A stretch of 64,000 nucleotides of DNA from Janthinobacterium sp. 64 (GTDB lineage: Bacteria; Pseudomonadota; Gammaproteobacteria; Burkholderiales; Burkholderiaceae_D), in contig NZ_PHUG01000001.1 in NCBI RefSeq assembly GCF_002813325.1, positions 2,356,001-2,420,000 on the forward strand, read 5' to 3'. This document shows positions 10,303 to 28,388 of the stretch, piece after piece. The first letter of the stretch is position 1; each line of letters begins with the position of its first letter. The notes under the pieces were generated by a model that searched no databases, had not been told where the DNA came from, and saw nothing but the letters and a program-made list of their open reading frames with translations. The translations under genes and the position numbers were made by a program.

Positions 10303-10452
10303 GAAATGCAACGCCAGGCGAAGGATTCCAGTAGACATCTTTACGGCGTGTGCGTAGACTCGTAACTGATTGCAGCAACAACAACAAAAATTTATCTTTG
10401 GTATCTATCCCTGCGCATGGCCGCCCCATGCGGGACATGGCCAGGAGCGCTT

Positions 10453-13084: not shown

Positions 13085-13231
13085 ATGCGCCTTGACAAGT
13101 TTCTTCCGACAGCCCTGATCACCTATTTGCAGGGCAAGGAAAAAGCTGCGTTCTACCGCTATGCACTGGTGGCGGCGCTCATGGCGGTGGTGTGCATCAT
13201 CGGACTGCTGGCACTGGGCGAAAGCCCATGA
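13085..13231 (+). CDS. Small single-pass membrane peptide upstream of flp
   Basis: A 48-residue frame, MRLDKFLPTALITYLQ..., with GGAG at about 13075 ahead of the ATG and one hydrophobic helix at residues 26-44 ending LALGESP. It has no pilin cleavage motif. The composition is like the neighbouring genes and the spacing fits the start of the Tad operon. I do not recognise the family. It could be a leader or accessory peptide; it could also be a chance frame. Confidence 0.5.
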   Translation: MRLDKFLPTALITYLQGKEKAAFYRYALVAALMAVVCIIGLLALGESP

Positions 13232-13314
13232 GAACGCCAGGTCGTAGCAGCAGGAAGCAACACTGTCATCCCGTTTTACCCACCGCCGTACCTTAACCAC
13301 CACCAGGAGTTGTC

Positions 13315-13488
13315 ATGAACATCATCAAAAACTTTATCCGCGAAGAAGATGGCGTCACTGCAATCGAGTACGGCCTGATCGCGGCCCTGATTGCCGTGGT
13401 GATCATCGCCGCCGTCACCATCGTCGGCACGCAGCTGAGAGCAACCTTCAACAGCATCGGCACCTCGCTCAAGACGGCAAACGCTTGA
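13315..13488 (+). CDS. flp: Flp-type pilin (major Tad pilin)
   Basis: A prepilin of 57 residues. The leader MNIIKNFIREEDG ends in the conserved Gly, and the mature part starts VTAIEYGLIAALIAVV, with the Glu at +5 and Tyr at +6 that define Flp pilins, then a single hydrophobic helix and a short polar tail. An AGGAG lies just before the ATG. It should be cut by the peptidase at 14820 and assembled by the TadA/B/C machinery downstream. Confidence 0.95.
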   Translation: MNIIKNFIREEDGVTAIEYGLIAALIAVVIIAAVTIVGTQLRATFNSIGTSLKTANA

Positions 13489-13582
13489 CCGCATGCAAAC
13501 CGGGCCGGCCCCAGCGCCAGCCCGGTGACAGCGCTTCAACTTTTCCACCAGGTTCACACTGCTTAAGTATTCCGAGGCCATC

Positions 13583-13756
13583 GTGAAATCTCTCTTCGCC
13601 CGTTTCTCCGACGAGTCGGCCGTCACAGCGATCGAATACGCGCTGCTGGCGGGCCTGATAGCGGCAGTGCTGGTGATCACGATCACCTTGCTCGGCGACC
13701 AGGTCCGGCTGCTGTTTGTCTACGTCAAGGACCAGGTGGTCCTGGCCCTGTCATGA
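13583..13756 (+). CDS. Second Flp-like pilin with Ala at the cleavage site
   Basis: 57 residues from a GTG at 13583. It mirrors the first pilin, with VTAIEYALLAGLIAAVL as the mature start including Glu +5 and Tyr +6. The residue before the cut is Ala (DESA/VTAIEY), not the usual Gly. The C-terminal tail is also more hydrophobic (LLFVYVKDQVVLALS). It could be a minor pilin processed less efficiently or a pseudopilin. The stop overlaps the next gene as ATGA. Confidence 0.85.
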   Translation: MKSLFARFSDESAVTAIEYALLAGLIAAVLVITITLLGDQVRLLFVYVKDQVVLALS

Positions 13757-14823
13757 ATACCCTGCGCGCCTCGCTGCGCACCCATCGCGCCCTGCTGCTG
13801 ATCGTGCTGCTGTACGCCGCCGCAGCCATGCTGCTGGCCGGCAGCCTGCCCAGCCCATCGGACATCGTCACCGTGCTGGCCGGTTTCCTCATGGCCATCC
13901 TCACGGGCCCCATCTTCATCCTGTGCGGCTACACCATCCACGTCATGGTGATGCAACGCCCGCACCGCCTGTGCCACTACCTGTACCACGATCTGCGCCG
14001 CTACCTGAGCAAGGAGCGCCTGCTGCACGCGCTGCCGGCCATGCTGCTGATCCCCGTCTTCGCCTGCAGCTTCACCGTCTTCAAGGCCGCCATCCCGCGC
14101 CTGCACCCCTACACCTGGGATACCACCCTGTCCGCCTGGGACACCGCGCTGCATGGCGACATGGCGCCATGGGAACGGCTGCAGCCGCTGCTGGGCCACC
14201 CGCTCGTCACGGGCCTGCTCAACTTCAGCTACCATTTCTGGTTCTTCCTGTTTTACGCCATCCTGTACTGGCTCATCCTCGACACGCGCCGCCCGCTGCT
14301 GCGCATGCAGTTCCTGCTCAGCTTTGCGCTGACCTGGATCGCCCTGGGCAGTGTCATGGCCGTGCTGTTTGCCTCGGTCGGCCCCTGCTACTACGGCCAC
14401 TTTCACGGCAGCGATCCGTATGCGCCGCTGATCGCCTACCTGCATGAGGCCAACGGGCACGTTCCCGTCTGGGCCTTGCAGGTGCAGGACATGCTGTGGC
14501 AAGGCTATCAAAGCAAGGGCGCGCACGGCGAACTGGGCATCTCCGCCATGCCCAGCATGCATGTGGCCACGGCCGTGCTGATGGCGATCATGGGCTGGAA
14601 AGTGAGCCGCGCCGCAGGCATCTCGCTGACCGCCTTCGCCGTGCTGATCCTGCTCGGCTCCATCCACCTGGGCTGGCACTATGCGCTCGACGGCTACGTC
14701 GGCGCGGCCGGCGCGGCGCTGGTATGGCGCCTGGTGGGACGGCTGCTGGGCCGCCAGGCCGCGGCCCCCAGCATGCACATGGCCACGGTGCCCTGCATCG
14801 GCAAGGAAGGACTGACATCATGA
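13753..14823 (+). CDS. PAP2-superfamily membrane phosphatase/transferase
   Basis: 356 residues with about eight hydrophobic segments. The PAP2-type active-site parts are visible: GISAMPSMHVATAV (near residue 265) and GSIHLGWHYALDGYVG (near 305), giving the His-x3-Asp pair. This pattern is closest to the inositolphosphotransferase (Aur1/Ipt1-like) branch, which transfers or removes phosphorylated lipid head groups. The gene is locked between the second pilin (ATGA overlap) and the prepilin peptidase (ATGA overlap), so it is translated with them. PAP2 enzymes are not core Tad parts. The substrate is unknown; an envelope lipid is the best guess. Confidence 0.85.
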   Translation: MNTLRASLRTHRALLLIVLLYAAAAMLLAGSLPSPSDIVTVLAGFLMAILTGPIFILCGYTIHVMVMQRPHRLCHYLYHDLRRYLSKERLLHALPAMLLIPVFACSFTVFKAAIPRLHPYTWDTTLSAWDTALHGDMAPWERLQPLLGHPLVTGLLNFSYHFWFFLFYAILYWLILDTRRPLLRMQFLLSFALTWIALGSVMAVLFASVGPCYYGHFHGSDPYAPLIAYLHEANGHVPVWALQVQDMLWQGYQSKGAHGELGISAMPSMHVATAVLMAIMGWKVSRAAGISLTAFAVLILLGSIHLGWHYALDGYVGAAGAALVWRLVGRLLGRQAAAPSMHMATVPCIGKEGLTS

Positions 14824-15407
14824 ACGCCCACCTGCCCATGCTGCTGTGCCTGGCCGTGCTGGCCACGCTGCTCGCCGCCGCGCTATGGCACGACCTGCGC
14901 ACGCGCCGCATCCCGAACCGGCTGGTGCTGTGGGGCACCCTGGCGGGACTGGTCCTCAACAGCGTCGTGCCATCGGGCGCCGGCCTGTTCGACACCGCCT
15001 TCGGCGGCCTGGGACTGCCGCAGGCGCTGGCCGGTGCCGCCGCCGGACTGGCCCTGCTGCTGCCCATGTATCTGCTGCGCGCCCTGGGCGCGGGCGACGT
15101 CAAGCTGATGGCCATGTGCGGCGCCTTCCTGGGCGCGGATGCCGTGCTCGAGGCGGTCCTGCTGACTTTCCTGTGCGGCGGCGTGCTGGCGCTGGCCGCC
15201 GCGCTGGCAGGGCGCCGCCTGCGCCTGGTGTTGCGCAATACCTGGCACATGATGCTGGGCGCGCTGCTGCACAGCCTTGCCGGCGGTGCCGCCACGATCG
15301 CCGAACCGCCACCGGCCACCGGCAAGCTGGCCTACGCCTTCGCCATCGCCAGCGGCACCGGCTTGCAAGTGTTCCTGCATTCCACCCACCTGTGGAGCCT
15401 GCGCTGA
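14820..15407 (+). CDS. cpaA: A24-family prepilin peptidase (TadV/CpaA)
   Basis: An inner-membrane aspartyl protease of 195 residues that removes the Flp leader. The two catalytic aspartates are in ALWHDLRTRRIPNRL (near residue 25) and LGAGDVKLMAM (near residue 92, the GxGD motif). About five to six hydrophobic segments are present. It lacks the N-terminal methyltransferase half of PilD, as is usual for TadV. ATG at 14820 overlaps the preceding stop. Confidence 0.93.
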   Translation: MNAHLPMLLCLAVLATLLAAALWHDLRTRRIPNRLVLWGTLAGLVLNSVVPSGAGLFDTAFGGLGLPQALAGAAAGLALLLPMYLLRALGAGDVKLMAMCGAFLGADAVLEAVLLTFLCGGVLALAAALAGRRLRLVLRNTWHMMLGALLHSLAGGAATIAEPPPATGKLAYAFAIASGTGLQVFLHSTHLWSLR

Positions 15408-15447
15408 AACGCGCCACGCCACCTGTCAGCCACCCTAGGACACGACC

Positions 15448-16068
15448 ATGGACACCATCGCCACGCTCTGCCACTCGCGCCACGCCAGCCTGCTCACCAG
15501 CATCACCATGGCCGGCCTGTGGGTATTCTTTGCCAGCGCGCACGTGGTCGGCTTCCTGCACAGCGGCGACTGGAGCTATCTGCTGTTCTGCGCCGCCGAA
15601 ACCCTGGCCGCCCTGTTCTTCATCGTGCGCTCGGCACCCGTCAGCGTCTCCACCGATGCGGGCGACTGGCTGCTGGCCATCGGCGCCACCTTTTCCCCGT
15701 TCCTCCTCTCGCCTGCCGACATGGCCATCTGGCCCGGCGCGCGCTACCTGCTGGCCATCGGCAGCCTGCTGCAGATCGCCGGCCTGCTGTCGCTGAACCG
15801 CAGCTTCGGCCTGGTGGCGGCGCAGCGCGAAATCAAGACGGGCGGCGCCTACCGCGTGATACGCCATCCGCTGTATGCCAGCTACCTGATTTCCATGAGC
15901 GGCTACCTGCTGTCCAACACCTCGCCCGCCAACGCCGTCATCTATGTCGCGACGATGAGCATGATGGTGATGCGCCTGCTGCGCGAAGAGCGCTTTCTGT
16001 CCACCGACGTGCGCTATCGCGTCTACATGCGGCAGGTGAAGTACCGCCTGCTGCCCTTCATCTTCTGA
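15448..16068 (+). CDS. Isoprenylcysteine carboxyl methyltransferase-like membrane protein
   Basis: 206 residues with four to five hydrophobic segments. The C-terminal half has the ICMT/PEMT pattern: GGAYRVIRHPLYASYLIS for S-adenosylmethionine binding, then LLREERFL and a Y-x3-Y...RLLPF tail. The family methylates carboxyl groups or phospholipid head groups at membranes. It lies between the prepilin peptidase and the ATPase inside the Tad locus. As the peptidase here lacks the methylating half of PilD, a role in pilin N-methylation is an attractive guess but unsupported; a lipid substrate is equally possible. Confidence 0.82.
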   Translation: MDTIATLCHSRHASLLTSITMAGLWVFFASAHVVGFLHSGDWSYLLFCAAETLAALFFIVRSAPVSVSTDAGDWLLAIGATFSPFLLSPADMAIWPGARYLLAIGSLLQIAGLLSLNRSFGLVAAQREIKTGGAYRVIRHPLYASYLISMSGYLLSNTSPANAVIYVATMSMMVMRLLREERFLSTDVRYRVYMRQVKYRLLPFIF

Positions 16069-16099
16069 CATCCGGCCACCCGAGCGAGGAGTACCCATC

Positions 16100-17446
16100 A
16101 TGCCTGACACCTATCCAGAACGCAGCGACGGCGGCGGCATCGAGCCGGCCGCCAGGCGCGCGCCACGCACGGTCGAGGAAACGGGATTGCCCTTCCTGTT
16201 CCTGGTCGAACTGCTGGTCAAGATACTCTTCCTGCGCGGCCAGATCGGCCTGCCCGCCCTGTCGACGCACGTCAAGCTGGGCGCCGGCGTGCTCGAACCG
16301 CTGCTCACTTTCATGCGCGCCGAAAAACTGTGCGAAGCGCGCCGCAACGGCGGCAGCGGCACCGATGCCGACCTGTATTACCTGCTGGGCGACCAGGGCC
16401 GCCTGCGCGCCGCCGAGTACATGCGCCGCAATGCCTACAGCGGTCCCGCCCCCGTCACCCTGGCCGACTACAGCAACCAGGTGCTGGCGCAAAGCGTGGC
16501 GGACATGCACGTCACGCGCGACGACGTGCAGCGCGAATTTCGCGACGTGGTGGCCAGTTCGGCCGTGCTCGACCAGCTGGGCGCGGCGATGAATTCCGGG
16601 CGCGCGCTGTTCTTCCACGGCCCCGCCGGCAGCGGCAAGAGCTACCTGGCCGAGCGCCTGAACGGCCTGCTCAGCGGCGCCATCGCCCTGCCCCATGCGG
16701 TGATGGTCGACGGCGAAGTGCTGCCCTTCCTCGACCCCATGCTGCACACCGTATCGCGCGGCGGTTCCGTGCCGCCCGACCCGCGCTGGGTGCGCGCCGA
16801 GCGCCCCGCCGTGCTGACGGGCGGCGAGCTGACGCTCGACATGCTGGACCTGCAATTCGACCAGGGCACCCGCTTGTACCAGGCGCCGCCGCACCTGAAG
16901 GCCAACAACGGCATCTTCATCATCGACGACCTGGGGCGCCAGCGCTGCTCGCCCGTGGAACTGATGAACCGCTGGATCGTGCCGATGGCGCGCCACATCG
17001 ATTACCTGTCGCTACACACGGGCTACAAGTTCCCCGTGCCCTTCGACGTCATCGTCGTGTTCTCGTCGAACCTGGCGCCGCAGCACCTGGCCGACGACTC
17101 CTTCCTGCGCCGCATCGGCTACAAGATCCACGTGGGTCCTTTGAGCGCCTACCACTACCTGGCCGTGTTCCGCAGCACCTGCGCGCAGCTGGGCATCAAT
17201 TTCGATGAAGCCTCGTACAGCTACCTGCTGCACCTGCACAGCCAGTACGGCCGGCCCCTGCTGGCCTGCTATCCGCGCGACATCCTGGCGCAGATCTGCG
17301 ACCAGGCGCGCTATGAAGACCACGCCGCGCAGCTGTCGCCGGAAGGGCTGCTGTGGGCATGGAAAAACTATTTCGGCAGCGATGACGACCTTGCAAGCAC
17401 ACACACCGGACCGGCAGCGGTCCAGCACAAAGGGGAAGCAAAATGA
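16100..17446 (+). CDS. AAA-type ATPase of the Tad locus
   Basis: 448 residues. The Walker A loop is HGPAGSGKSYLAERL (near residue 177) and the Walker B is GIFIIDDLGRQR (near 275), with an arginine-rich segment (SFLRRIGYKI) after it. The N-terminal 150 residues look like a winged-helix-type adaptor, rich in LxxPALSTHVKLGAGVLEPLL. No membrane segment. It overlaps cpaB as ATGA. This is not TadA, which is at 24024, and has no assigned role in Tad assembly. It may be a regulator or a remodelling ATPase. Confidence 0.8.
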   Translation: MPDTYPERSDGGGIEPAARRAPRTVEETGLPFLFLVELLVKILFLRGQIGLPALSTHVKLGAGVLEPLLTFMRAEKLCEARRNGGSGTDADLYYLLGDQGRLRAAEYMRRNAYSGPAPVTLADYSNQVLAQSVADMHVTRDDVQREFRDVVASSAVLDQLGAAMNSGRALFFHGPAGSGKSYLAERLNGLLSGAIALPHAVMVDGEVLPFLDPMLHTVSRGGSVPPDPRWVRAERPAVLTGGELTLDMLDLQFDQGTRLYQAPPHLKANNGIFIIDDLGRQRCSPVELMNRWIVPMARHIDYLSLHTGYKFPVPFDVIVVFSSNLAPQHLADDSFLRRIGYKIHVGPLSAYHYLAVFRSTCAQLGINFDEASYSYLLHLHSQYGRPLLACYPRDILAQICDQARYEDHAAQLSPEGLLWAWKNYFGSDDDLASTHTGPAAVQHKGEAK

Positions 17447-18291
17447 GAAACGCACGCGCTCTGACGATGATGGCCATTGCGGTCATCCTGGCGTTCGCCG
17501 CGGTCATCGTGGCCGCGCGCTGGATCAATGCCCAAGCCTCGGGCAACATCAACAAGGTGGCCGTGGCCCAGGTCGACATCAGCCTGGGCGCGCGCCTCAC
17601 GCCCGACATGGTGCGCATGGTGGACTGGCCATCGAACGCGCTGCCACCGGGCGCCATCAACGATCCGAAACTGCTGGACACGCGCGTCACGCGCACCAGC
17701 ATCCAGCACGGCGAACCGATCATGGAAGGCAAGCTGGCGCCTCCCGGCACGCAAGGCGGCCTGTCGGCCGTCGTCGCCGAAGGCAAGCGCGCCATGACCG
17801 TGCGCGTCAACGATGTGGTGGGCGTGGCCGGCTTCGCCCTGCCCGGCAACTTCGTCGACATCCTCGTCAATACCCAGGGCGAAGGGGCGCGCAAGACACC
17901 GGACCGCGATCCGAACATTTCCAAGATCGTGCTCGAACGCATCCTCGTGCTGGCCATCGCCCAGGAATCGAGCCGCGACGACACCAAGCCCAAGGTGGTC
18001 AACGCCGTGACCCTGGAGCTGACGCCGGAGCAGGCGGAAAAACTCGACCTGGCACGCAGCGTGGGCACCCTGTCGCTGGTGCTGCGCAACCAGGTCGAGG
18101 ACAAGCCCGTCAACACGGAAGGCGCCACCAAATCCAGTTTGCTCGATGAAAAAGTCGCCGTTGCCGCCCCCGCCGCCATGGTGCAAGCCAAGCCGCTGCC
18201 CCGCCGCCGTCCTGCCGCCGCACCGGCGCCACAGGCCGGCCCCCGCGTCGATGTCATCAAGGGGCTGGAACGCAGCTCCCAACAATTCTAA
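17443..18291 (+). CDS. cpaB: Flp pilus assembly protein CpaB/RcpC
   Basis: 282 residues. An N-terminal membrane anchor (LTMMAIAVILAFAAVIVAARW) leads into an SAF domain (VAVAQVDISLGARLTPDMV) and an RcpC domain (GKRAMTVRVNDVVGVAGF, PGNFVDILVNTQ). The tail is Pro/Ala/Arg rich. RcpC-type proteins are periplasmic and work with the secretin, which is the next gene. The start overlaps the ATPase stop by four bases. Confidence 0.93.
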   Translation: MRNARALTMMAIAVILAFAAVIVAARWINAQASGNINKVAVAQVDISLGARLTPDMVRMVDWPSNALPPGAINDPKLLDTRVTRTSIQHGEPIMEGKLAPPGTQGGLSAVVAEGKRAMTVRVNDVVGVAGFALPGNFVDILVNTQGEGARKTPDRDPNISKIVLERILVLAIAQESSRDDTKPKVVNAVTLELTPEQAEKLDLARSVGTLSLVLRNQVEDKPVNTEGATKSSLLDEKVAVAAPAAMVQAKPLPRRRPAAAPAPQAGPRVDVIKGLERSSQQF

Positions 18292-18313
18292 CCTGCACCA
18301 GAGGAGCCACGCC

Positions 18314-19882
18314 ATGAGTACATATCGCACAGCAAGCGGCATCCGGGGTCTGCACCTGGCGCTTGCCATCGCCGCCATCGGCGCCCTGGCGCCGCGGGCG
18401 CACGCCGAGCCAGCCGCCGCCGCCACCGCCGTTGCCGCCGACACGGGCGCGGCCCGCGGCAGCCGCGCCGCCACCCGTCCCAAGTCCACGCCGCCGCAAA
18501 GCGAATCGCGTGCCGGGCGCACCGAGATGGCGCCGCAAATGAGCCTGGCCGAAGGCAAGTCGACCCTGATGCGCCTGCCGTTTTCCGCCAGCCGCATGTC
18601 CGTCGGCGATCCGCGCATCGCCGACGTCATCCTGCTCAACCCCAGCGAGGTGTACCTGCTGGGGCGCTCCGTCGGCACCACCAACCTGATCCTGTGGAAC
18701 AAGAACAATGACGCCACCATCATCGACCTGGCCGTCGGCATCGACAGCAGCAGCCTGCAGGCCCGCATGGCCGAACTGCTGCCGAACGAAAAGATCCACG
18801 TCACGGTGGCGGGCGACACCCTGATCCTGTCGGGCATGGTCAGCGACGTCGTCAAGGCCGACCAGGCCCTGTCGCTGGCCAACGCCTACGTGCAGCGCAG
18901 CAGCCGCAGCGGCGGCGCCACCTCCGGCGCGGCACCAGCGGCCGGCGCCGCCGCGCCCGCCCCCGCCGCCACACCCGATGCATCCATGCCGCGCGTGATC
19001 AACCTGCTGTCGATCGCCGCGCCGCAGCAGGTGATGCTGGAAGTGAAGGTGGCCGAAGTGTCGAAGGTGCTGGTGGACCAGCTGGGCGCCAGCCTGGGCA
19101 TCAACAAGACCATCGGCAGCTGGTCGTATTCGCTGCTGTCCAGCCTGCTCAGCAACAATCCCAGCGGCTTGAGCGGCGCCAGCAAGAACAACTTCTTCAA
19201 CCTCGACGCGCAAAAACGCGATGGCCTGATCAAGGTGCTGGCCGAACCGAACATCATGGCCATCAGCGGCCAGGAGGCCAGCTTCCTGGCCGGCGGAAAA
19301 ATCTTCATCCCCGTCAGCCAGACCAATAATAACGGCGTGCCCACGATCACCCTGGAAGAGAAGGAATTCGGCGTGGCCGTGAAATTCACGCCCACCGTGC
19401 TCGAAGGGGGACGCATCAACCTGAAGGTGGCGCCGGAAGTGTCGGACCTGAACAAGGACGGCATCGGCATCACCGCCACCGGCATCTCGGCCACCGCCAT
19501 CCTGCCCTCGTTTACGACGCGGCGCGCCACCACCACGGTGCAGCTGTTCGACGGCCAGAGCTTCGCCATCGGCGGCTTGATCAAGAACAATGTGACCAGC
19601 AATATCAAGGCCTTGCCAGGCCTCGGTGAAGTGCCCGTGCTGGGCGCCCTGTTCCGCAGCACGGACTTCCAGACGGACCGCTCGGAACTGGTCTTCATCA
19701 TCACGCCGCACCTGGTCAAGCCGCTGCCGCCCGACTACAAGCTGCCCACCGACGGCTACATCCAGCCCACGCGCGGCGACATGTTCATGCAGGGAAAAAT
19801 GGAAGGTACTGCGCCCGCCGCCGCCCCCATGCAGCCGCAAGCAGCCGCGCCCCAGCCTGCCGCCGGCTTCGACCTCAAATAG
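18314..19882 (+). CDS. cpaC: Tad secretin CpaC/RcpA
   Basis: Outer-membrane channel for the Flp pilus; 522 residues. ATG at 18314 follows GAGGAG and opens a signal peptide (LALAIAAIGALAPRAHA). A pilus-assembly N-domain covers about 75-145, a BON-like region 145-195, a low-complexity Ala/Pro/Gly linker 195-225, and the secretin domain about 235-490 with VMLEVKVAEVSK, LAEPNIMAISGQEASFLAGG and VPVLGALFRS. The Ala-rich C-terminal tail is unstructured. Confidence 0.95.
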   Translation: MSTYRTASGIRGLHLALAIAAIGALAPRAHAEPAAAATAVAADTGAARGSRAATRPKSTPPQSESRAGRTEMAPQMSLAEGKSTLMRLPFSASRMSVGDPRIADVILLNPSEVYLLGRSVGTTNLILWNKNNDATIIDLAVGIDSSSLQARMAELLPNEKIHVTVAGDTLILSGMVSDVVKADQALSLANAYVQRSSRSGGATSGAAPAAGAAAPAPAATPDASMPRVINLLSIAAPQQVMLEVKVAEVSKVLVDQLGASLGINKTIGSWSYSLLSSLLSNNPSGLSGASKNNFFNLDAQKRDGLIKVLAEPNIMAISGQEASFLAGGKIFIPVSQTNNNGVPTITLEEKEFGVAVKFTPTVLEGGRINLKVAPEVSDLNKDGIGITATGISATAILPSFTTRRATTTVQLFDGQSFAIGGLIKNNVTSNIKALPGLGEVPVLGALFRSTDFQTDRSELVFIITPHLVKPLPPDYKLPTDGYIQPTRGDMFMQGKMEGTAPAAAPMQPQAAAPQPAAGFDLK

Positions 19883-19891
19883 GAGAACACC

Positions 19892-20170
19892 ATGAAAACC
19901 GCACATTGCCTGCCTTGCGCCGCCCTGATATGCCTGCTGGCCGGCTGCGCCGCCACCACCACGCCCGTGCTCGATTCGCACTTCGGCGAATCGGTGGCCC
20001 TGCTCAAGTCGCAGCAGATCATGTATCCGGACGCTTACCGCAACATGGACCCCGTCAGCGGCATCGATGGGAAGTCAGGGGCCAGCGCCTACCAGCGCTA
20101 CCAGAAATCGTTCGCGGCGCCGGAACCGCAACCGAATGTCTTCACCATCGGCGTGGGCGGGCGCCAGTAG
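19892..20170 (+). CDS. Small lipoprotein of the Tad locus
   Basis: 92 residues with a type II signal peptide and lipobox LLAGC (Cys near residue 19). The mature part has YRNMDPVSGIDGKSG and ends NVFTIGVGGRQ. It sits 9 bases after the secretin gene. No RcpB/CpaD gene is otherwise seen, so this may be the outer-membrane lipoprotein that helps the secretin; that is inference from position. TadD has a similar QPNIFTLS phrase. Confidence 0.7.
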   Translation: MKTAHCLPCAALICLLAGCAATTTPVLDSHFGESVALLKSQQIMYPDAYRNMDPVSGIDGKSGASAYQRYQKSFAAPEPQPNVFTIGVGGRQ

Positions 20171-20216
20171 GCGCCGGTCCCGCGATGCACTTCCCCCAGG
20201 CCACCAGGAGACGCCC

Positions 20217-21767
20217 ATGAACACCGCATTTCGCAGGCACGACAGGCAACACGGCGCGATCGCCATCGTGCTGGGACTGACCCTGGTGGTGCTGTTTGCC
20301 ATGGGCGGTCTGGTGCTGGACCTGGGCCACCTGTACATCGCCAAGACGGAACTGCAGAACGGCGCCGACAGCGCCGCCCTGGCAGGCGCCGTGGAACTGA
20401 ACCAAAGCGCCGCCGGCATCGACAACGCGCAGGCCAAGGCCATCGCCATCGCGCAAAAGAACCGCTACGACTTTTCCACCGCGCTGACCATCACGTCCGC
20501 CAACATCAGCTTCGGCCCCAGCCCGGACGGCCCCTGGTCATCCGGCGCCAGCGCCCGCACCAGCCCGGACGGACAGACCTTCATCCGCATCGACACGGGC
20601 AGCAAGACCTTCGCCACCTACCTGATGGGCATCGCCGGCATCGCCAGCACCAGCACCTCGGGCGTAGCCGTGGCGGGCCGCTTCGTCAACGACGTCACGC
20701 CGATCGGCGTGTGCGCCGTCGATCCGGCCAACAAGACGGCGCAATACACGTATCCGGCCGCGCCGGCCGGCAGCGGCCTGACGGAGCTGGTCGAATTCGG
20801 CTTTCGCCGCGGCGTCACCTACAATCTGTTCGGCCTCAATCCGCTGGGCGGACCGTCCGATCCCTATCTGATCAACCCTGTCGACGCCCCGCCCGGCAGC
20901 TGCAGCGCCTCGCATTCGAGCGCCGCCTCCACCGCGCCATTCATGTGCACGGGCAGCAGCGCCGTCATCACCAGCGGTACGGGCCAGGTCTACACGAACA
21001 CGGGCTTGACGGCGTCGCTGGCCGCCTCGCTCAATTCACGCTTCGACGATTACGGCGGGCCGTCCGTGTGCGATCCCGTGACGGCGCCGCCCGACACCAA
21101 CATCAAGGAATATCCGTGCGTGGGCGCCGCGTCGCCCTGCGCCGCCGCTGCCGCCAACTCGCCGCCCACCGGCTGGATGCAACCAGGCGCCAGCACCTTG
21201 CCCAGCCAGCAGTCGGTCAGCCTGGCCGGCAACAAGCCGAATTACCAGTTACCGTCGGCCGGCTCGGTGCCTGTGCCCTCGGCCACGTTCGCCCAGTTCG
21301 CCGGCTACGGCGTGCTGTGGTCTTACGGCCCCGCCTACCAAAGCAATGGCGCCAGCCCGGCCAAGGCGGGCGCGGCGTACAGCGTCGCAGACGGCAACGC
21401 CAACCCTCTGTACAGCACGGCCAAGGCGAATTACTTCGACGCGGCCAGCTACCCCGTCAGCGCTGGCGCCTCCTTCCCCGTCGGCACGCCGCCTGCGCCC
21501 TACAACCAGACCAGCGGCCCCACGTTCCAGGCGCCGTCGGTGGCCCATCCGGGCCAGCGCAACCGGCGCATCCTCAACGTGGTGCTGGTCGATTGCCGCA
21601 CGGCGCCCGTCGGGCCGGCCTCGTGCGGCACCATGAATGCGGTGGGCATCGGCAAATTCTTCATGACGATGAAGGCCGATTTCAGCGGCGGCACCAAGCG
21701 CCTCGACGTCGAGTTCGCGGGCCTGATCGAGCCCGTGCCGAATTCCGAAATCAAACTCTACAAGTGA
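20217..21767 (+). CDS. tadG: TadG-like pilus assembly protein
   Basis: 516 residues. ATG at 20217 follows AGGAG. N-terminal RHDRQHGAIAIVLGLTLVVLF is the TadE/TadG-type membrane anchor, followed by DLGHLYIAKTELQNGADSAALAGA, the classic putative Flp-assembly motif. The 300-residue middle part is Ser/Ala/Pro/Gly rich with several Cys pairs and should be periplasmic. Co-directional with two TadE-like genes. Confidence 0.88.
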   Translation: MNTAFRRHDRQHGAIAIVLGLTLVVLFAMGGLVLDLGHLYIAKTELQNGADSAALAGAVELNQSAAGIDNAQAKAIAIAQKNRYDFSTALTITSANISFGPSPDGPWSSGASARTSPDGQTFIRIDTGSKTFATYLMGIAGIASTSTSGVAVAGRFVNDVTPIGVCAVDPANKTAQYTYPAAPAGSGLTELVEFGFRRGVTYNLFGLNPLGGPSDPYLINPVDAPPGSCSASHSSAASTAPFMCTGSSAVITSGTGQVYTNTGLTASLAASLNSRFDDYGGPSVCDPVTAPPDTNIKEYPCVGAASPCAAAAANSPPTGWMQPGASTLPSQQSVSLAGNKPNYQLPSAGSVPVPSATFAQFAGYGVLWSYGPAYQSNGASPAKAGAAYSVADGNANPLYSTAKANYFDAASYPVSAGASFPVGTPPAPYNQTSGPTFQAPSVAHPGQRNRRILNVVLVDCRTAPVGPASCGTMNAVGIGKFFMTMKADFSGGTKRLDVEFAGLIEPVPNSEIKLYK

Positions 21768-21774
21768 GGCGGCC

Positions 21775-22242
21775 ATGCGCATCCACCATTCCTCCCTCAG
21801 CCAGCGCGGCGGCGCCGCCGTCGAATTCGGCATCGTGCTGGCCCTGCTGGTGACCCTGCTGGCCGGCATCTTCGGCTTCGGCCGCGCCTTCTGGTACTAC
21901 GATGCGCTGGCCAAGGCGACGCGCGACGCGGCGCGCAACATGTCCGTCAAGGCCAAGGCCGGCATCGCCTCGCAAGGCGTGCCGGCGGCCAGACAGACGG
22001 TGGTCGATGCGGCCACCAGCGCCGGCATCGGCGGCTTCACCACGGCCAACGTGACGGTCACCTGCCTGGACGCGGCGTTCAACGACAGCAGCTGCACCGA
22101 TGGCACGGCGCCGGGCGGCATCCGCGTCGAAGTCGTCAACTACACGCTGTCGGTGGGCCAGTACCTGCCCTTCGTGATCGGCGCGGCCAGCACCTATGCC
22201 ACGCCGCTCTCGCCGCGCACCACCATGCGCTACATGCTGTAA
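21775..22242 (+). CDS. tadE: TadE-like pseudopilin (first copy)
   Basis: 155 residues. SQRGGAAVEFGIVLALLVTLL is the TadE-type processing and anchor segment, with Gly-Ala/AVEF showing the Glu of pseudopilins. FGFGRAFWYYDALAKATRDAAR follows. Two Cys in the periplasmic part could pair. Seven bases separate it from tadG; RBS GAGG lies in the gap. Confidence 0.9.
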   Translation: MRIHHSSLSQRGGAAVEFGIVLALLVTLLAGIFGFGRAFWYYDALAKATRDAARNMSVKAKAGIASQGVPAARQTVVDAATSAGIGGFTTANVTVTCLDAAFNDSSCTDGTAPGGIRVEVVNYTLSVGQYLPFVIGAASTYATPLSPRTTMRYML

Positions 22243-22252
22243 GGAGAACGCC

Positions 22253-22771
22253 ATGCGCCACCGCCATCCACTTGCCCTCCGAACTGGCCGCCAGCGCGGC
22301 GCCGCCGCCGTCGAATTCGCCCTGGTGGCGCTGCTGTTTTTCACGCTGCTGTTCGGCATCCTCGAATTTGGCCGCATGCTGTACCTGTACAACACGGTGC
22401 AGGAAGTGAGCCGCCGCGCCGCGCGCGAAGCGGTGGTGCGCTGGATCGACCAGACCGACGCCGTCAAAACGCTGGCCCTGTTCGGCGGCACGGCCCTGCC
22501 GGCCGCGCCGGAACTGACGGCCGCCAACATCACCATCCGCTACCTGAACAAGAGCGGCGCCGAAGTGACCTTGCCGCCGACGGACCCGGGCGACAACCTG
22601 TCGGCCTGCGGCGACAACACGCGCACGGCCAGCTGCATCGACAGCGTGCGCGTGTCGATCGACAACGTCAGCTATGCGCCGATGGTCAGCCTGTTCGGTT
22701 TTCTCAATATCGCCGTGCCCGCCTCGGTGGTGGTCATGCACGCCGAAAGCCTGGGCTTCCAGATCAACTGA
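22253..22771 (+). CDS. TadE-like pseudopilin (second copy, TadF position)
   Basis: 172 residues from ATG 22253 after AAGGAG. QRGAAAVEFALVALLFFTLLFGI and LEFGRMLYLYNTVQEVSRRAAR are the TadE signature. It is paralogous to the gene just before it, with two Cys in the distal part. TadE, TadF and TadG act as minor pseudopilins in the Tad system. The gap behind it contains a 13-bp tandem duplication. Confidence 0.9.
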   Translation: MRHRHPLALRTGRQRGAAAVEFALVALLFFTLLFGILEFGRMLYLYNTVQEVSRRAAREAVVRWIDQTDAVKTLALFGGTALPAAPELTAANITIRYLNKSGAEVTLPPTDPGDNLSACGDNTRTASCIDSVRVSIDNVSYAPMVSLFGFLNIAVPASVVVMHAESLGFQIN

Positions 22772-22795
22772 ACGCCTTTACCGAACGCCTTTACC
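22770..22795 (+). repeat. 13-bp tandem duplication before cpaE
   Basis: GAACGCCTTTACC occurs twice head to tail at 22770-22782 and 22783-22795. The first copy contains part of the second tadE stop codon. It lengthens the spacer in front of the GTG start of cpaE. Confidence 0.85.
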
Positions 22796-22807
22796 AGGGA
22801 GTGCCAC

Positions 22808-23959
22808 GTGAACATCGTCATCGTCTCGAAGAATGAAGCCCAGCTCAAGCGGCTCACGCGCCTGCTGCGCGAACGCAGCGCGGCCGACCGCGTCGCGCTG
22901 CTGGCGAGCATACCCGATGTATTCGACAACGGCGTCACGCCGGACTTGCTGCTGCTGGAACAGGAGCAGACGGGCGAGGCGGAGCTGACACAGCTCGAGC
23001 TGCTGGGCGGACGCCATCCGAGCCTGGCCATCATCGTGCAATGTCCGCAGCAAAGTCCGCAATTCCTGCTGCGCTCGATGCGCGCCGGCGTGCGCGAAGT
23101 GCTGCAGCCGGACGATGATGCAGCGCTGTGCGCCGCCTTGCGCCGCATCGAGGACAAGCTGCAGAAACAGGTCACGCGCAAGGGCCAGGTGCTGGCCTTC
23201 GTCTCGTGCAAGGGCGGCAGCGGCGCCACCTTCATCGCCGCCAACCTCGGCTACGCGCTGGCCGCCGGCGAGCAGCGCAAGGTGGCGCTGTTCGACCTGA
23301 ACCTGCAGTTCGGCGACGCCGCCCTGTTCGTCTCGGACCACAAGCCGGCCGCCACCCTGTCGCAGCTGTCGCAGCAGATCGTGCGCCTCGACGCTTCGCT
23401 GCTGGCCGCCAGCATGATCCAGATCACGCCCGCCTACAGCGTGCTGGCCGCCGCCGACGATCCGGCCCATGCGGCCGACATCGAAGCCGAACATATCGAC
23501 CGTTTGCTGACCCTGGCGCGCAGCCAGTACGACTACATCCTGCTCGACGTGGGACGCGGCCTCGATCCCGTCAGCGTGCGCGCGCTGGACCGGGCCGACC
23601 TGATCTTCCCCGTGCTGCAGGCAACCTTGCCGTACGTGCGCGACGGCAAGCGCCTGCTCGACGTGTTCCGTGGCCTCGGCTACCGCGAAGACAAGATCCG
23701 CCTGATCCTGAACCGCTATGCCAGCAGCGACAGCATCCGCGTGGCCGACCTGGAAGCGGCGTATGGCAAGCGCGTCTACAAGTCCATCCCCAACCACTAC
23801 GAAGCGGTGGCGGCCTCCGTCAGCCAGGGCGTGCCCATCCTCAAGCTGGCGCCGCACAACCCCGTCTCGCGCGCGCTGCAGGAACTGGCCGCCAGCCTGG
23901 CCGGAGAAACCCCGCCCGCCGCGCAAGGCTGGGTTGCGCGGCTGCTGGCGCGCGCCTGA
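22808..23959 (+). CDS. cpaE: Pilus localisation ATPase CpaE/TadZ
   Basis: 383 residues from GTG 22808 (GGGAGTG upstream). The first 120 residues form a receiver-like domain lacking a clear phospho-acceptor, with DLLLLEQEQ in its place. The MinD/ParA-like part has the deviant Walker A SCKGGSGATFIAANL near residue 137 and DYILLDVGRGLDPVS as switch region. The family places the Tad machine at cell poles. The 3' end runs into the 19-bp triplicate repeat. Confidence 0.93.
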   Translation: MNIVIVSKNEAQLKRLTRLLRERSAADRVALLASIPDVFDNGVTPDLLLLEQEQTGEAELTQLELLGGRHPSLAIIVQCPQQSPQFLLRSMRAGVREVLQPDDDAALCAALRRIEDKLQKQVTRKGQVLAFVSCKGGSGATFIAANLGYALAAGEQRKVALFDLNLQFGDAALFVSDHKPAATLSQLSQQIVRLDASLLAASMIQITPAYSVLAAADDPAHAADIEAEHIDRLLTLARSQYDYILLDVGRGLDPVSVRALDRADLIFPVLQATLPYVRDGKRLLDVFRGLGYREDKIRLILNRYASSDSIRVADLEAAYGKRVYKSIPNHYEAVAASVSQGVPILKLAPHNPVSRALQELAASLAGETPPAAQGWVARLLARA

Positions 23960-24007
23960 TTCCCTACAGCGCGCCTGATTCCCTACAGCGCGCTTGATTC
24001 CCTACAT
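23949..24007 (+). repeat. Three 19-bp tandem repeats between cpaE and tadA
   Basis: CGCCTGATTCCCTACA starts at 23953, 23972 and, with one change (CGCTTG), 23991: an exact 19-base period. The first copy contains the cpaE stop codon TGA at 23957-23959. The array fills the whole gap to the tadA ribosome-binding site. Confidence 0.92.
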
Positions 24008-24023
24008 TGACCGGAGACCGACC

Positions 24024-25391
24024 ATGACTGCCGAAAAACTCACCCTGCGGGACCGCCTGGGCTACGCCCAGGATGACGCCAGCCTGAATGACGATGCCGC
24101 GCACCAGGGCGCAGCCAGCCAGAGCTACCAGCAACTCAAGCACCGCACCCACCAGGCGCTGCTCGACAGGGTCGACCTGGAAGGCATGCAGCGCCTGTCG
24201 CGCGAGCAGATCCGCGAAGAGCTGAAGATCCTCGTCAGCGACGTGCTCACGCAAGACAATGTGGTGATCAACGAGCTGGAACGGCGCTCGCTGATCCGCG
24301 ACATCCAGGACGAGGTACTGGGCTTCGGCCCGCTCGAACCGCTGCTGGCCGATCCCGGCGTGTCCGATATCCTCGTCAACACCTACCGCCAGGTGTATGT
24401 CGAGCGCCATGGCCGCCTGGAGCTGAGCGACGTCTGCTTCACCGACGACGCGCATTTGATGAAGATCATCGACAAGATCGTCTCGCGCGTGGGCCGGCGC
24501 ATCGATGAATCGAGCCCGATGGTCGATGCGCGCCTGCCCGACGGTTCGCGCGTCAACGCCATCATCCCGCCGCTGGCCATCGACGGCCCCGTGATGTCGA
24601 TCCGCCGCTTCTCGGCCCAGCCCCTGCGCTTGGCCGACCTGATGCTCAAGCACAGCCTGACGGAGGAAATGAGCACCACCCTGCAGGCGCTGGGCAAGGC
24701 CAAGGTCAACATCCTGATCTCGGGCGGCACGGGCAGCGGCAAGACCACCATGCTCAATGCGATTTCCGGCTTCATCAGCACGGCCGAACGCATCGTCACC
24801 ATCGAAGACGCGGCCGAACTGCAGATGCAGCAGCCGCACGTGGTGCGCCTGGAAACACGGCCCGCGAACATCGAGGGCAAGGGCGAAGTGACGCAAAGGG
24901 CGCTGGTGCGCAACGCGCTGCGCATGCGCCCCGACCGCATCATCCTGGGCGAAGTGCGCGGCGCCGAGGCGCTCGACATGCTGGGTGCCATGAACACGGG
25001 CCATGAAGGCTCGATGGCCACCATCCACGCGAACACCCCGCGCGACGCGCTGACGCGGCTGGAAAACATGATCAGCATGGCCTCGGCGGGCCTGCCCATG
25101 AAAGCCATGCGCCAGCAGATCAGTTCGGCCATCAGCGTGGTGGTGCAGGTGGCGCGCCTGACGGACGGCAAGCGCAAGATCATCTCGATCCAGGAAATCA
25201 CGGGCATGGAAGGCGAGATGATCACCATGCAGGAAATCTTCACCTTCCGCCAGACGGGCATCGGCGAGGATGGCACGGTGCAGGGGCATTTCCATGCCAG
25301 CGGCGTGCGGCCGCATTTCCTGGAACGCCTGCGCGCCTTCGGCATCAGCCTGCCGGAAACCCTGTTCGATCCCGCCCGCCAGTACCATTAA
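24024..25391 (+). CDS. cpaF: Tad secretion ATPase TadA/CpaF
   Basis: Hexameric motor for Flp pilus assembly; 455 residues. ATG at 24024 follows CCGGAGAC; an upstream frame start at 23994 falls inside the repeat and is unlikely. Seen are the Walker [17 protein letters not shown] near residue 235, Walker [17 protein letters not shown], and the His box [17 protein letters not shown]. The N-terminal portion ([12 protein letters not shown]) is the CpaF N-domain. Confidence 0.96.
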
Positions 25392-25401
25392 GGGGAGCAT
25401 C

Positions 25402-26376
25402 ATGGACTATCTCTATTACGTATTCGCCATCCTCACCTTCATCGCCGTGGTGCTGCTGATCGAGGGTCTGTACCTGGCGTGGAACACCTCGCGCGGGCCG
25501 GAAGCGGAAAGGGTGGCGCGCCGCCTGCGCATCATGTCGGCCGGCGCGCATGGCGACGCGGGCAGTTCGATGATCAAGAAGCGCCTGCTGAGCGACACCC
25601 CGGCCCTGCAGCGCGTGCTGCTCAGCGTGCCCCGCGTGCATGCGCTCGACCGCCTGCTGGAACAGTCGGGCCTGAGCTGGAGCGTGGCCAGCTTCGCCGG
25701 CGTGATGCTGGCCTCGGCTGGCGCCGCGTTTTTGCTGCTGAGCTACTTCAGCGTGCCGTGGCTGCTGCGCCTGCCGCTGGTGGCCGGCGCGGCCCTGCTG
25801 CCGCTGCTGCTGGTCTTGCGCGCCAAGGCCAAGCGCCTGCAGCGCATCGAACAGCAATTGCCCGATGCGCTCGACCTGATGGCGCGCGCCCTGCGCGCCG
25901 GCCACGCCTTCCCCACCGCCCTGAAAATGGTCGGCGATGAAATGAATGCGCCGCTGGCCGTGGAGTTTCGCGTCACCTTCGACGAAGTCAATTTCGGCAT
26001 CGCCATGCCCGACGCCCTGATGAACCTGGCCACGCGCGTGCCCAGCACGGACTTGCGCTACTTCGTCATCGCCGTGCTGATCCAGCGTGAAACGGGCGGC
26101 AACCTGGCCGAACTGCTCGACAGCATCAGCCGCATCATCCGCGAGCGCATCAAGCTGCTGGGACAGGTGCGCGTGCTGTCGGCCGAAGGCCGGCTGTCGG
26201 CCTGGATCCTGTCGCTGCTGCCCTTCGGCGCGGCAGCCATGATCCACCTGACCAACCCGCAATTCCTGGAAATGCTGTTCGTCGACCCGGGCGGACGCAA
26301 GATGCTCGTCGGCGCCCTGGTGATGATGGTGTTCGGCGTCCTGGTCATGCGCAGCATCATCCGCATCCGCGTCTGA
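25402..26376 (+). CDS. tadB: Tad inner-membrane platform protein TadB
   Basis: 324 residues with hydrophobic segments near 5-25, 95-135 and two at 265-320. The GspF/T2SF domain includes QQLPDALDLMARALRAGHAFPTAL and FVIAVLIQRETGGNLAELLD. It pairs with TadC as the platform on which TadA acts. It starts 10 bases after tadA with AGGGGAG upstream. Confidence 0.95.
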   Translation: MDYLYYVFAILTFIAVVLLIEGLYLAWNTSRGPEAERVARRLRIMSAGAHGDAGSSMIKKRLLSDTPALQRVLLSVPRVHALDRLLEQSGLSWSVASFAGVMLASAGAAFLLLSYFSVPWLLRLPLVAGAALLPLLLVLRAKAKRLQRIEQQLPDALDLMARALRAGHAFPTALKMVGDEMNAPLAVEFRVTFDEVNFGIAMPDALMNLATRVPSTDLRYFVIAVLIQRETGGNLAELLDSISRIIRERIKLLGQVRVLSAEGRLSAWILSLLPFGAAAMIHLTNPQFLEMLFVDPGGRKMLVGALVMMVFGVLVMRSIIRIRV

Positions 26377-26395
26377 GCCCGCAAGGAGAACCCTC

Positions 26396-27346
26396 ATGAA
26401 TCCCGTCCATTACGCTTTTCTCGCCCTGCTCTTCATCGCCGTCTTCGGCACCGTGCTGGTGGCCATGCGCAGCTTCGCCCCCGACCCCTTGCGCCAGCGC
26501 ATGGACAACGCCACCGGCAAGAGCGCGGCAGCGCCTGACACCGCCTCCGCGCCCAGCCCCTGGCTGGCGCGCGTGGTGCGCCTGAGCGGCCCGCTGGCCA
26601 AACTGTCGCTGCCCGACCAAGGCTGGGAAGGCTCCGTGATGCGCCGGCGCTTCATGAATGCCGGCCTGCGCCAGGCGTCGGCGCCCATCCTGTTCTTTTC
26701 CGCCAAGACCATGCTGGCCATCGGCCTGCCCCTGCTGCTGTTCCTGGGACTGAGCGCCTCGGGCAGCCAGATGGCGGGCAAGGCTCTCCTGTTCTGGCTG
26801 CTGATCGTGGCCGCCATCGGCTACTACCTGCCCAATATCGTGCTGGCGCAAATGATCAAGCGGCGCCAGCGCGACATCTTCGAGAGCTTTCCCGATGCGC
26901 TGGACTTGATGACGGTGTGCGTGGAAGCGGGCCTGGCCATGGATGCGGCGCTGGCCAGGGTGGCGGCCGAGATCGCCCTGAAAAGCACCGTGCTGGCCGA
27001 GGAATTGCACCTGGTGATGCTGGAACTGCGCGCCGGCAACACCAAGGAGCGGGCCCTGCGCAACCTGGCCCTGCGCACAGGGGTCGAGGATGTCGATGCG
27101 CTGGTGGCCATGCTGATCCAGGCCGAGCGCTTCGGCACCAGCATCGCCGCCTCGCTGCGCGTGCAGTCGGATCAGCTGCGCACCAAGCGCCGCCAGCTGG
27201 CCGAGGAAGAGGCGGCGAAGATCGCCCTCAAGCTGCTGTTCCCGCTGATCTTTTTCATCTTCCCTTCGCTGCTGGTCGTCCTGATGGGACCAGCCTTCCT
27301 GCAAATCTACCGCGTGCTCCTGCCCAGCATGGGCGGCGGCAACTGA
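26396..27346 (+). CDS. tadC: Tad inner-membrane platform protein TadC
   Basis: 316 residues; second T2SF-domain protein. FPDALDLMTVCVEAGLAMDAAL and LIQAERFGTSIAASLRVQSDQLR are the conserved blocks, with membrane segments near 5-22, 100-150 and 285-308. RBS AAGGAGA precedes it. Co-translated with tadB and tadD. Confidence 0.95.
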   Translation: MNPVHYAFLALLFIAVFGTVLVAMRSFAPDPLRQRMDNATGKSAAAPDTASAPSPWLARVVRLSGPLAKLSLPDQGWEGSVMRRRFMNAGLRQASAPILFFSAKTMLAIGLPLLLFLGLSASGSQMAGKALLFWLLIVAAIGYYLPNIVLAQMIKRRQRDIFESFPDALDLMTVCVEAGLAMDAALARVAAEIALKSTVLAEELHLVMLELRAGNTKERALRNLALRTGVEDVDALVAMLIQAERFGTSIAASLRVQSDQLRTKRRQLAEEEAAKIALKLLFPLIFFIFPSLLVVLMGPAFLQIYRVLLPSMGGGN

Positions 27347-27359
27347 CCGGAGAAGCGCC

Positions 27360-28388
27360 ATGTCACAGCACACCACCCTGATGTTCATGCTCGCCTGCGC
27401 CGGCCTGCTGCCCGCCTGCGGCCACCTGCCCGGCCCGGCCAGCCAGGGCAGCCAAGGCAACCATGTTGCGCCGCCCCAGGCGCGCATCGATGACAGCCCC
27501 GCCACCCGCAGCGCCGCGTACTGCAAGCTGGGCAAGCGCCTGCAGGAAGTGGGCGACCCGCGCGCGGCGCTGGCGGCCTATCGCGAAGCGCTGCTATTGA
27601 CGCCCGACTCGACCGATGCGCGCAATGGCGCCGCCGTGCTGCACGCGCAGCTGGGCCAGCTGGAAACAGCGCGCGCCATGCTGCAGGCGCTGGCGCAAGA
27701 GGCGCCGACGGCCAGGACCTACAACAATCTCGGCTACGTGCTGTACCTGCAGGGAGACCATGCCCAGGCGGCGGCCGTGCTGCGCCAGTCGCTGCAGCTC
27801 GACAACGGCCAGCAGCCGGCGCGCGCCAACCTGGATCTCGCCATCGCGGCGCTGGCACGCAGCATCAGCACGGTCGATGCGGCCGATGCCAGCGCGGACG
27901 CCATCGCGCCCGACCTGGCACCAGCGTCCGCGCCTGCCAGCCGCCTGCAGCTGACGCAGTCGCAGCCGAATATCTTCACGCTGAGCTGGCGCGATGCGCC
28001 CGTGATCGCGCGCACAGCCTTGCCGGCCCCGGCAAAACCGGCAGCGAAGGCGGCACCGCTGCCACGGCTGGAAGTCATCAACGGCAATGGCGAAACGGGG
28101 ATGGCGGCGCGCATGCGCGGCATGCTGGGCGGCATGGGCATCAGCGTGCTGCGGCTGGGCAACCAGCGGCCGTACGGCGCCCAGGCCAGCAGTATCGTCT
28201 ACCGCCCCGGCCACGCCGAGGCGGCCGCCGCCTTGGCACTGGCACTGGGCGGCATGCCGCAAGTACAGGCGTCGGACGACAGCGGCATCGGCACCGGGGC
28301 CGACCTGCGCTTATTGCTGGGCAAGGATGCGGCGGCCAGCCTGACGGCGTCAGCGCGGCAGCAATTGACGGTCGCCGGGATTGAGTAG
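27360..28388 (+). CDS. tadD: TPR lipoprotein TadD with LytR-type C-terminal domain
   Basis: 342 residues. Signal peptide with lipobox GLLPACG (Cys near residue 20). TPR repeats cover about 50-165 (AALAAYREALLLTPDSTDARN, TYNNLGYVLYLQGDHAQAAAVL split over two repeats). The C-terminal 100 residues (LEVINGNGETGMAARMRGML, YRPGHAEAAAALA, LLLGKDA) match the LytR C-terminal fold. TadD is thought to help the secretin reach the outer membrane. The last 39 bases overlap the convergent gene at 28350. Confidence 0.9.
   Translation: MSQHTTLMFMLACAGLLPACGHLPGPASQGSQGNHVAPPQARIDDSPATRSAAYCKLGKRLQEVGDPRAALAAYREALLLTPDSTDARNGAAVLHAQLGQLETARAMLQALAQEAPTARTYNNLGYVLYLQGDHAQAAAVLRQSLQLDNGQQPARANLDLAIAALARSISTVDAADASADAIAPDLAPASAPASRLQLTQSQPNIFTLSWRDAPVIARTALPAPAKPAAKAAPLPRLEVINGNGETGMAARMRGMLGGMGISVLRLGNQRPYGAQASSIVYRPGHAEAAAALALALGGMPQVQASDDSGIGTGADLRLLLGKDAAASLTASARQQLTVAGIE

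Follow-up and report, generated by a model that had tools for sequence, protein, structure and literature searches.

A Tad pilus operon of Janthinobacterium sp. 64 with layered accessory genes, among them an optional, Tad-linked candidate methyltransferase

The 64,000-nucleotide stretch of the Janthinobacterium sp. 64 genome analysed here (the window; C1:2356001-2420000 within a 6.30 Mb genome) contains, at window positions 13085-28388, the whole operon for a Tad (type IVc) pilus, with all genes on the + strand. Its accessory genes are arranged in layers: a widespread AAA+ ATPase gene, a flp2-PAP2 pair of the Oxalobacteraceae, and an optional, Tad-linked methyltransferase gene found in several phyla. 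The last of these encodes a protein resembling ICMT (isoprenylcysteine methyltransferase) and PEMT (phospholipid methyltransferase), which is most likely, judging from its sequence and gene context, a membrane methyltransferase dedicated to the Tad system. The favoured reading, with a probability of about 0.38, is a layered Tad operon in which this enzyme would act on the Tad system, with the N-terminal amine of the mature pilin as its target. The preliminary description of the locus had treated the AAA, ICMT-like and PAP2 genes as one built-in set. A single three-gene variant set was rejected because the three genes each have their own distribution.

Identity of the ICMT-like protein

The protein scores 21.5 bits against PF04140, just below the cut-off of 24, and a Myxococcales relative passes the same profile with 33.2 bits. 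Its predicted fold matches solved ICMT clearly above background, and it shares this fold and the RHPxY and EE motifs with ICMT (Ma-ICMT 4A2N, eukaryotic ICMT 5VG9/5V7P) and PEMT. The gene product is an ICMT/PEMT-fold membrane protein with the conserved motifs of the family. ICMT/PEMT enzymes bind S-adenosylmethionine at the membrane-cytoplasm interface and methylate membrane-bound substrates. A literal protein-S-isoprenylcysteine O-methyltransferase is disfavoured, as the score against the isoprenylcysteine methyltransferase model NF040696 is 32.8 bits versus a cut-off of 160, and Cys is absent from the last 6 residues of all 18 operon proteins, which leaves no prenyl-Cys candidate within the operon.

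A literature search by title and start of abstract, with preprints, most subscription journals and other wordings outside its scope, found no paper joining Tad pili with an ICMT-like methyltransferase and none pairing prepilin with isoprenylcysteine. In the available part of one paper, the partner of an ICMT-like gene is a collagen-like adhesin, not Tad (PMC10224339); isoprenylcysteine, flp and pilus assembly coincide in one study, on hemp rhizospheres (PMC11172691).

Association with Tad loci

Genome contigs were scanned with two short patterns from an alignment of Oxalobacteraceae-like sequences, and the best 80 of 154 relatives formed the locus set. These loci were annotated with profiles from the window genes and their relatives, built on stop-to-stop open reading frames (ORFs); the TadV and TadB profiles also match shadow ORFs. 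A locus was called linked when its stretch, which extends at most 10 kb to each side, contained two or more kinds of core Tad gene; short contigs may hide linkage. By this definition 55/80 loci are linked, as compared with about 1% expected for random genes by chance (a rough estimate from a 35 kb target in a few-Mb genome). Linkage was found in Oxalobacteraceae (36/36), Nitrosomonadaceae (8/8), Myxococcota (4/4), Burkholderiaceae (3/6), Methylococcales (2/7), Acidobacteriota (1/1) and Omnitrophota (1/1), and was absent from Mesorhizobium (0/6), Actinomycetota (0/4), Planctomycetota (0/3) and four others (0/4). Two loci counted as unlinked are L032, with tadD only, and L054, where Tad lies 12.4 kb off on a seemingly identical contig (L132, L146). 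A quick protein tree had 79 rows, from the window and 78 loci, with the broken frames of L031 and L067 left out. On this tree the linked label changes 7 times, as compared with a shuffled mean of 21.5, and 0/500 shuffles reached so low a number; near-identical copies account for part of this result, several branches are long, and the supports are of the SH-aLRT (approximate likelihood ratio) type only.

The position of the gene within the Tad cluster varies. The order tadV-ICMT-AAA occurs in most Oxalobacteraceae and in L043, and tadV-ICMT in L040, L045 and L056. The gene is divergent from flp in L041, L047, L048, L061 and L062, follows cpaE in L042 and L059, and lies between tadD and tadG in L060. 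It follows tadG in L063, L068, L075, L076, L079 and L082, tadC in L066, and tadC-AAA in L070. In several lineages it stands beside Tad genes in the absence of PAP2.

A sample of 60 genomes of the window's family gave 5 strong matches to the methyltransferase profile (265-311 bits) and 11 weak ones (45-61 bits). Four of the five strong copies lie within Tad operons; the remaining one (G139) has the tadD of a Tad locus 12.4 kb away on its contig. Tad core genes were found near none of 10 weak, distant ICMT-like matches (10/11 were examined, G137:C150 being left out; L142 and L143 are on short stretches; weak profile matches, to TadA at ~1e-10 in L140 and L141 and to CpaE at 6e-7 in L136, were disregarded). 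Since the strong copies are Tad-linked and the distant ones are not, Tad linkage marks the subfamily and not ICMT-like proteins at large.

Passive linkage, in which a generic methyltransferase gene without a pilus role rides on a mobile Tad island, is improbable. Its patchy spread (the 5 strong matches in the 60 family genomes, and 3/120 in a sample of the order), the distance of the G139 copy from tadD and the broken copies, which are possibly assembly errors, speak for it; the different Tad-cluster slots on separate tree branches, the overlap with tadV (see below) and the 0/10 linkage of distant family members speak against it. The three copies in the order sample were taken at E 1e-12, and one of them is weak. 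The methyltransferase frame is broken in L031 and L067 (Janthinobacterium sp. UMAB-56, Massilia sp. H-1); in Massilia sp. H-1 an assembly error is likely, because many genes of that locus are broken.

Gene spacing

The measured gaps in the window are exactly -4 for flp2/PAP2, PAP2/tadV and AAA/cpaB, and +40 for tadV/ICMT and +31 for ICMT/AAA. The three four-base overlaps, of which the two of PAP2 are ATGA, are those that the preliminary description had read from the letters. The flp2/PAP2 overlap is kept in 29/29 loci with a readable flp2 and the PAP2/tadV overlap in 27/30 PAP2 loci (n=30 with the window; L038 ends at a contig edge, hence 29 for flp2). The AAA/cpaB overlap occurs in 19/41 adjacent pairs, ICMT-free loci included, and a TadV-ICMT four-base overlap in 15/37 adjacent pairs. 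The three overlaps of the window are conserved beyond chance, and the coupling of extra genes to core genes that had been proposed is thereby upheld.

TadV and a possible route to a methylated pilin

TadV of the window has no CxxC..CxxC motif and no PilD methylase domain (PF06750). The motif is likewise absent from all 56 TadV ORFs, 45 from enzyme-bearing and 11 from enzyme-free loci, counted as stop-to-stop ORFs after exclusion of profile matches without a GxGDxK-type motif. According to the available part of one paper, type IVc pilus (T4cP) peptidases are typically without a methylation domain, and pilin processing includes N-methylation often, not always, with its purpose unknown (PMC10191384). 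A methylase-free TadV is the rule for Tad systems and no clue in itself. The absence pointed out earlier is true, and its use as a clue falls away because it is normal among Tad peptidases. Mutual exclusion of the ICMT-like enzyme and a bifunctional peptidase was likewise uninformative, because no TadV ORF carried the methylase motif. One PF06750 gene lies elsewhere in the genome, at C1:4738528.

Under the favoured reading, TadV would cleave Flp and TadE-type prepilins on the cytoplasmic side. The free N-terminal amine left behind would lie where membrane meets cytoplasm, which is also where ICMT/PEMT enzymes act. The candidate enzyme would then methylate this amine on Flp1, perhaps also on Flp2 or on minor pilins of the TadE type, and so provide the reaction that PilD carries out with its second domain and that is missing from TadV. 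The proposed reaction, in which the N-terminus of the mature pilin is methylated on the cytoplasmic side of the membrane, is the same as that of PilD-type prepilin peptidases/N-methyltransferases; in PilD the methylase domain (PF06750, CxxC zinc motif) and the peptidase form one protein, whereas the Janthinobacterium candidate stands alone and has the ICMT/PEMT fold. The place of its gene beside flp or beside tadV, with the four-base overlap given above, fits pilin N-methylation, which is tentatively the best-fitting role of the candidate enzyme. A broader version is rather unlikely: that Tad pili of several phyla have a stand-alone ICMT/PEMT-fold pilin N-methyltransferase acting right after TadV, a second invention unrelated to the PilD zinc domain, with flp2-PAP2 as a further, family-specific modification module in which Flp2 would be partner or substrate. 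In the available parts of a Caulobacter Tad pilus structure paper (PMC11067988) and a Kil pilus paper (PMC12075869), methylation occurs only in reference titles.

Methylation of another Tad component, that is the N-terminus of TadE or TadG, a side chain or a C-terminus in place of the Flp N-terminus, is quite unlikely. TadE-type pilins are reportedly cut by TadV too (ascribed to Tomich, 2006), and the gene adjoins tadG in L060 and in the six loci listed above as having it after tadG; elsewhere, including the five loci where it is divergent from flp, it adjoins flp or tadV, which favours Flp.

The flp2-PAP2 pair and the lipid alternative

The PAP2 protein matches PF14378 with 88.5 bits versus a cut-off of 27. 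PAP2_3 (PF14378) is a lipid phosphatase/phosphotransferase family. The PSMH and HxxxD residues that the window protein shares with that family are invariant, and H270, H309, D313, K111 and R184 are so across 20 sequences; the protein differs from the family in that its gene overlaps flp2 within a Tad operon. A PDB sequence search with PAP2 gave no match. PAP2 is present in 29 of the 80 loci, all from Oxalobacteraceae (Janthinobacterium, Massilia, Duganella, Pseudoduganella and Rugamonas), and a close relative in 3/60 family genomes, all in the window's genus. Since 1,320 relatives came up in a protein search, PAP2 itself may occur beyond Oxalobacteraceae loci. The methyltransferase-Tad linkage reaches well past close relatives, into several phyla; PAP2 was seen in Oxalobacteraceae loci only.

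Flp2 has Ala (25/29) or Gly (4/29) at residue -1, before the predicted cut, and in most PAP2 loci a C-terminal tail resembling VKDQVVLALS. The -1 Ala is confined to Flp2 and two Anaeromyxobacter Flp, and is absent from the 24 Flp of enzyme-free loci. Flp2 is missing from the PAP2-free Oxalobacteraceae loci L025, L030, L034, L052 and L067, L034 having a pair of Flp of the ordinary kind; the locus stretches examined for L079 and L082 showed no Flp at all. Because the second Flp precedes PAP2 in 29/29 loci and is missing where PAP2 is, Flp2 and PAP2 look like one inherited module. As a guess, PAP2 would be a lipid phosphatase/phosphotransferase kept at the pilus by its pilin-like partner, where it may modify lipids, or a group attached to lipid, at the place of assembly.

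These features bear on an alternative that is unlikely, namely that the substrate of the ICMT-like enzyme is a phospholipid or lipid-linked molecule, and that the enzyme and PAP2 together tune the membrane surrounding the pilus apparatus while the pilin stays unmodified. It agrees with PEMT being the best Pfam match of the enzyme, and with the catalytic-type residues kept in PAP2. The Tad copy is also the sole PF04191 match in 6/7 Oxalobacteraceae genomes (G120-G124 and G135, not G134; 16 genomes were reached through loci, 7 of them Oxalobacteraceae) and could be the cell's only such enzyme. However, a PAP2 of this protein family was not found at Tad-linked loci outside Oxalobacteraceae (Nitrosomonadaceae, Methylococcaceae, Myxococcota and Burkholderiaceae), and the ICMT-like enzyme and PAP2 are therefore not bound together in an obligatory pathway. 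An enzyme for lipids in general would, moreover, have no reason to remain next to Tad genes through so many changes of gene order.

Observations against pilin methylation

Several observations weigh against an enzyme acting on the Tad pilin. ICMT/PEMT enzymes also methylate lipids, and PAP2 lies two genes away. TadV lacks the methylase domain alike in loci with and without the ICMT-like gene, and does not discriminate between them. A distinct +1 pilin residue in enzyme-bearing loci was rejected, as V is dominant both in enzyme-free loci (V 17, A 6, I 1; 24 Flp from 18 loci) and in enzyme-bearing linked loci (V 67, A 6, P 2, M 1; n=76), and the two cases of +1 Pro, both from Anaeromyxobacter, fit N-methylation poorly. 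By the definition above, 25/80 loci are unlinked, Methylococcaceae copies among them. In one of the latter, L051, the unlinked methyltransferase gene is divergent from genes for a type 2A encapsulin shell protein and a class-V aminotransferase; L050, L053 and L055 of the same family have equal-sized ORFs in the layout of L051. Finally, the ICMT-like gene is present in 0/36 other Tad loci of the order sample of 120 genomes (36/37 non-own RcpC loci were examined, G039 being left out), and the genome of Janthinobacterium sp. 64 has one ICMT-like copy for four RcpC loci. Because these 36 loci and three of its own lack the gene, Tad assembly does not need it, and the methyltransferase is optional for the Tad pilus.

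The AAA+ ATPase

The AAA gene product has an AAA+ fold and carries both the Walker A and the Walker B motif. Across the sample of 60 genomes from the window's family, 21/21 copies are at most 1.3 kb from a cpaB match, and the gene stands beside 21/52 cpaB matches. This widespread ATPase is a component of this Tad subtype and not special to the locus. A PDB sequence search gave generic P-loop/AAA matches only, and the structural neighbours of the model are archaeal 8P49, Lon and sigma-54 activators; assignment of a function from these matches and neighbours was rejected.

Layout of the operon

The genes are listed in Table 1. Flp, TadV, TadA, TadB and TadC, TadE/F, TadG, CpaB/RcpC, the secretin and TadZ are together at the locus, and the named genes are free of internal stops. 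Pfam and TIGRFAM profile matches to the named core genes confirm the full Tad locus that had been described. As in Aggregatibacter tad, Pseudomonas flp-tad-rcp and Caulobacter cpa, one operon holds all core genes and TadV has no methylase domain; the Janthinobacterium operon differs in adding the AAA+ ATPase, the ICMT-like methyltransferase, PAP2_3 and a second Flp.

Table 1. Genes of the Tad operon (window positions; a slash within a motif marks the predicted cut; pLDDT, predicted local distance difference test)
Gene or product	Position	Strand	Match or other evidence
48-aa small membrane ORF, possible degenerate mini-pilin	13085..13231	+	PF04964 15.7 bits, below cut-off 32.2
flp1, major Flp pilin, EEDG/VTAIEY	13315..13488	+	PF04964 69.2 bits (cut-off 32.2), 2.7e-19
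flp2, second Flp, -1 Ala (DESA/VTAIEY), tail VKDQVVLALS, GTG start	13583..13756	+	PF04964 45.3 bits (cut-off 32.2), 7.6e-12
PAP2_3 family membrane phosphatase/phosphotransferase, 356 aa	13753..14823	+	PF14378 6.4e-25
tadV, prepilin peptidase without methylase domain	14820..15407	+	PF01478 8.2e-22, sole domain
ICMT/PEMT-like membrane methyltransferase, 206 aa	15448..16068	+	PF04191 34.2 bits (cut-off 25)
AAA+ ATPase, N-terminal winged-helix-like part, 448 aa, not TadA	16100..17446	+	model pLDDT 88.6, AAA+ matches
cpaB/rcpC	17443..18291	+	PF16976 1e-31
cpaC/rcpA secretin	18314..19882	+	PF00263 3.2e-44, PF13629
92-aa small lipoprotein-like gene	19892..20170	+	no Pfam match; profile matches at same place in relatives
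tadG	20217..21767	+	PF13400 6.1e-13
tadE-like minor pilin 1	21775..22242	+	PF07811 7.2e-12
tadE/F-like minor pilin 2	22253..22771	+	PF07811 1.4e-16
cpaE/tadZ	22808..23959	+	TIGR03815 3.5e-20 (below its cut-off); PF13614
tadA/cpaF motor ATPase	24024..25391	+	TIGR03819 4.6e-105 (just below its cut-off); PF00437
tadB	25402..26376	+	PF00482 9e-19
tadC	26396..27346	+	PF00482 6.2e-16
tadD, TPR protein, C-terminal LytR_C domain	27360..28388	+	TPR families; PF13399 4e-12

A histidine kinase gene (10417-12120) and a LuxR-type response regulator gene (ORF 11949-12818) lie upstream of the operon. The first small ORF resembles a pilin trimmed to its N-terminal helix; similar small ORFs precede flp1 in L019, L023, L025, L027, L028, L030 and L067, some with Gly before the expected cut. 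The lipoprotein-like gene recurs after cpaC in many related Tad loci, and its product could be a pilotin or secretin partner. In TadD the LytR_C domain sits behind the TPR repeats. The three further RcpC/CpaB loci of the genome (G000:C1:1836234, 4018763 and 5647208) include the AAA gene at two and ICMT or PAP2 at none. A plasmid origin was rejected, as 13085-17450 had no megablast match among the plasmid collection sequences, and so were relatives on viral contigs, 37 pattern matches giving 0 relatives by tblastn.

Implications

The AAA+ ATPase joins the parts list of this Tad subtype. The optional Tad-linked methyltransferase, occurring across several phyla, is a part worth testing and suggests an extra, optional step in making the pilus. 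As a separate candidate enzyme that is present or missing among Tad loci even within one genome, it would allow methylation to be taken away or introduced while the peptidase stays as it is.

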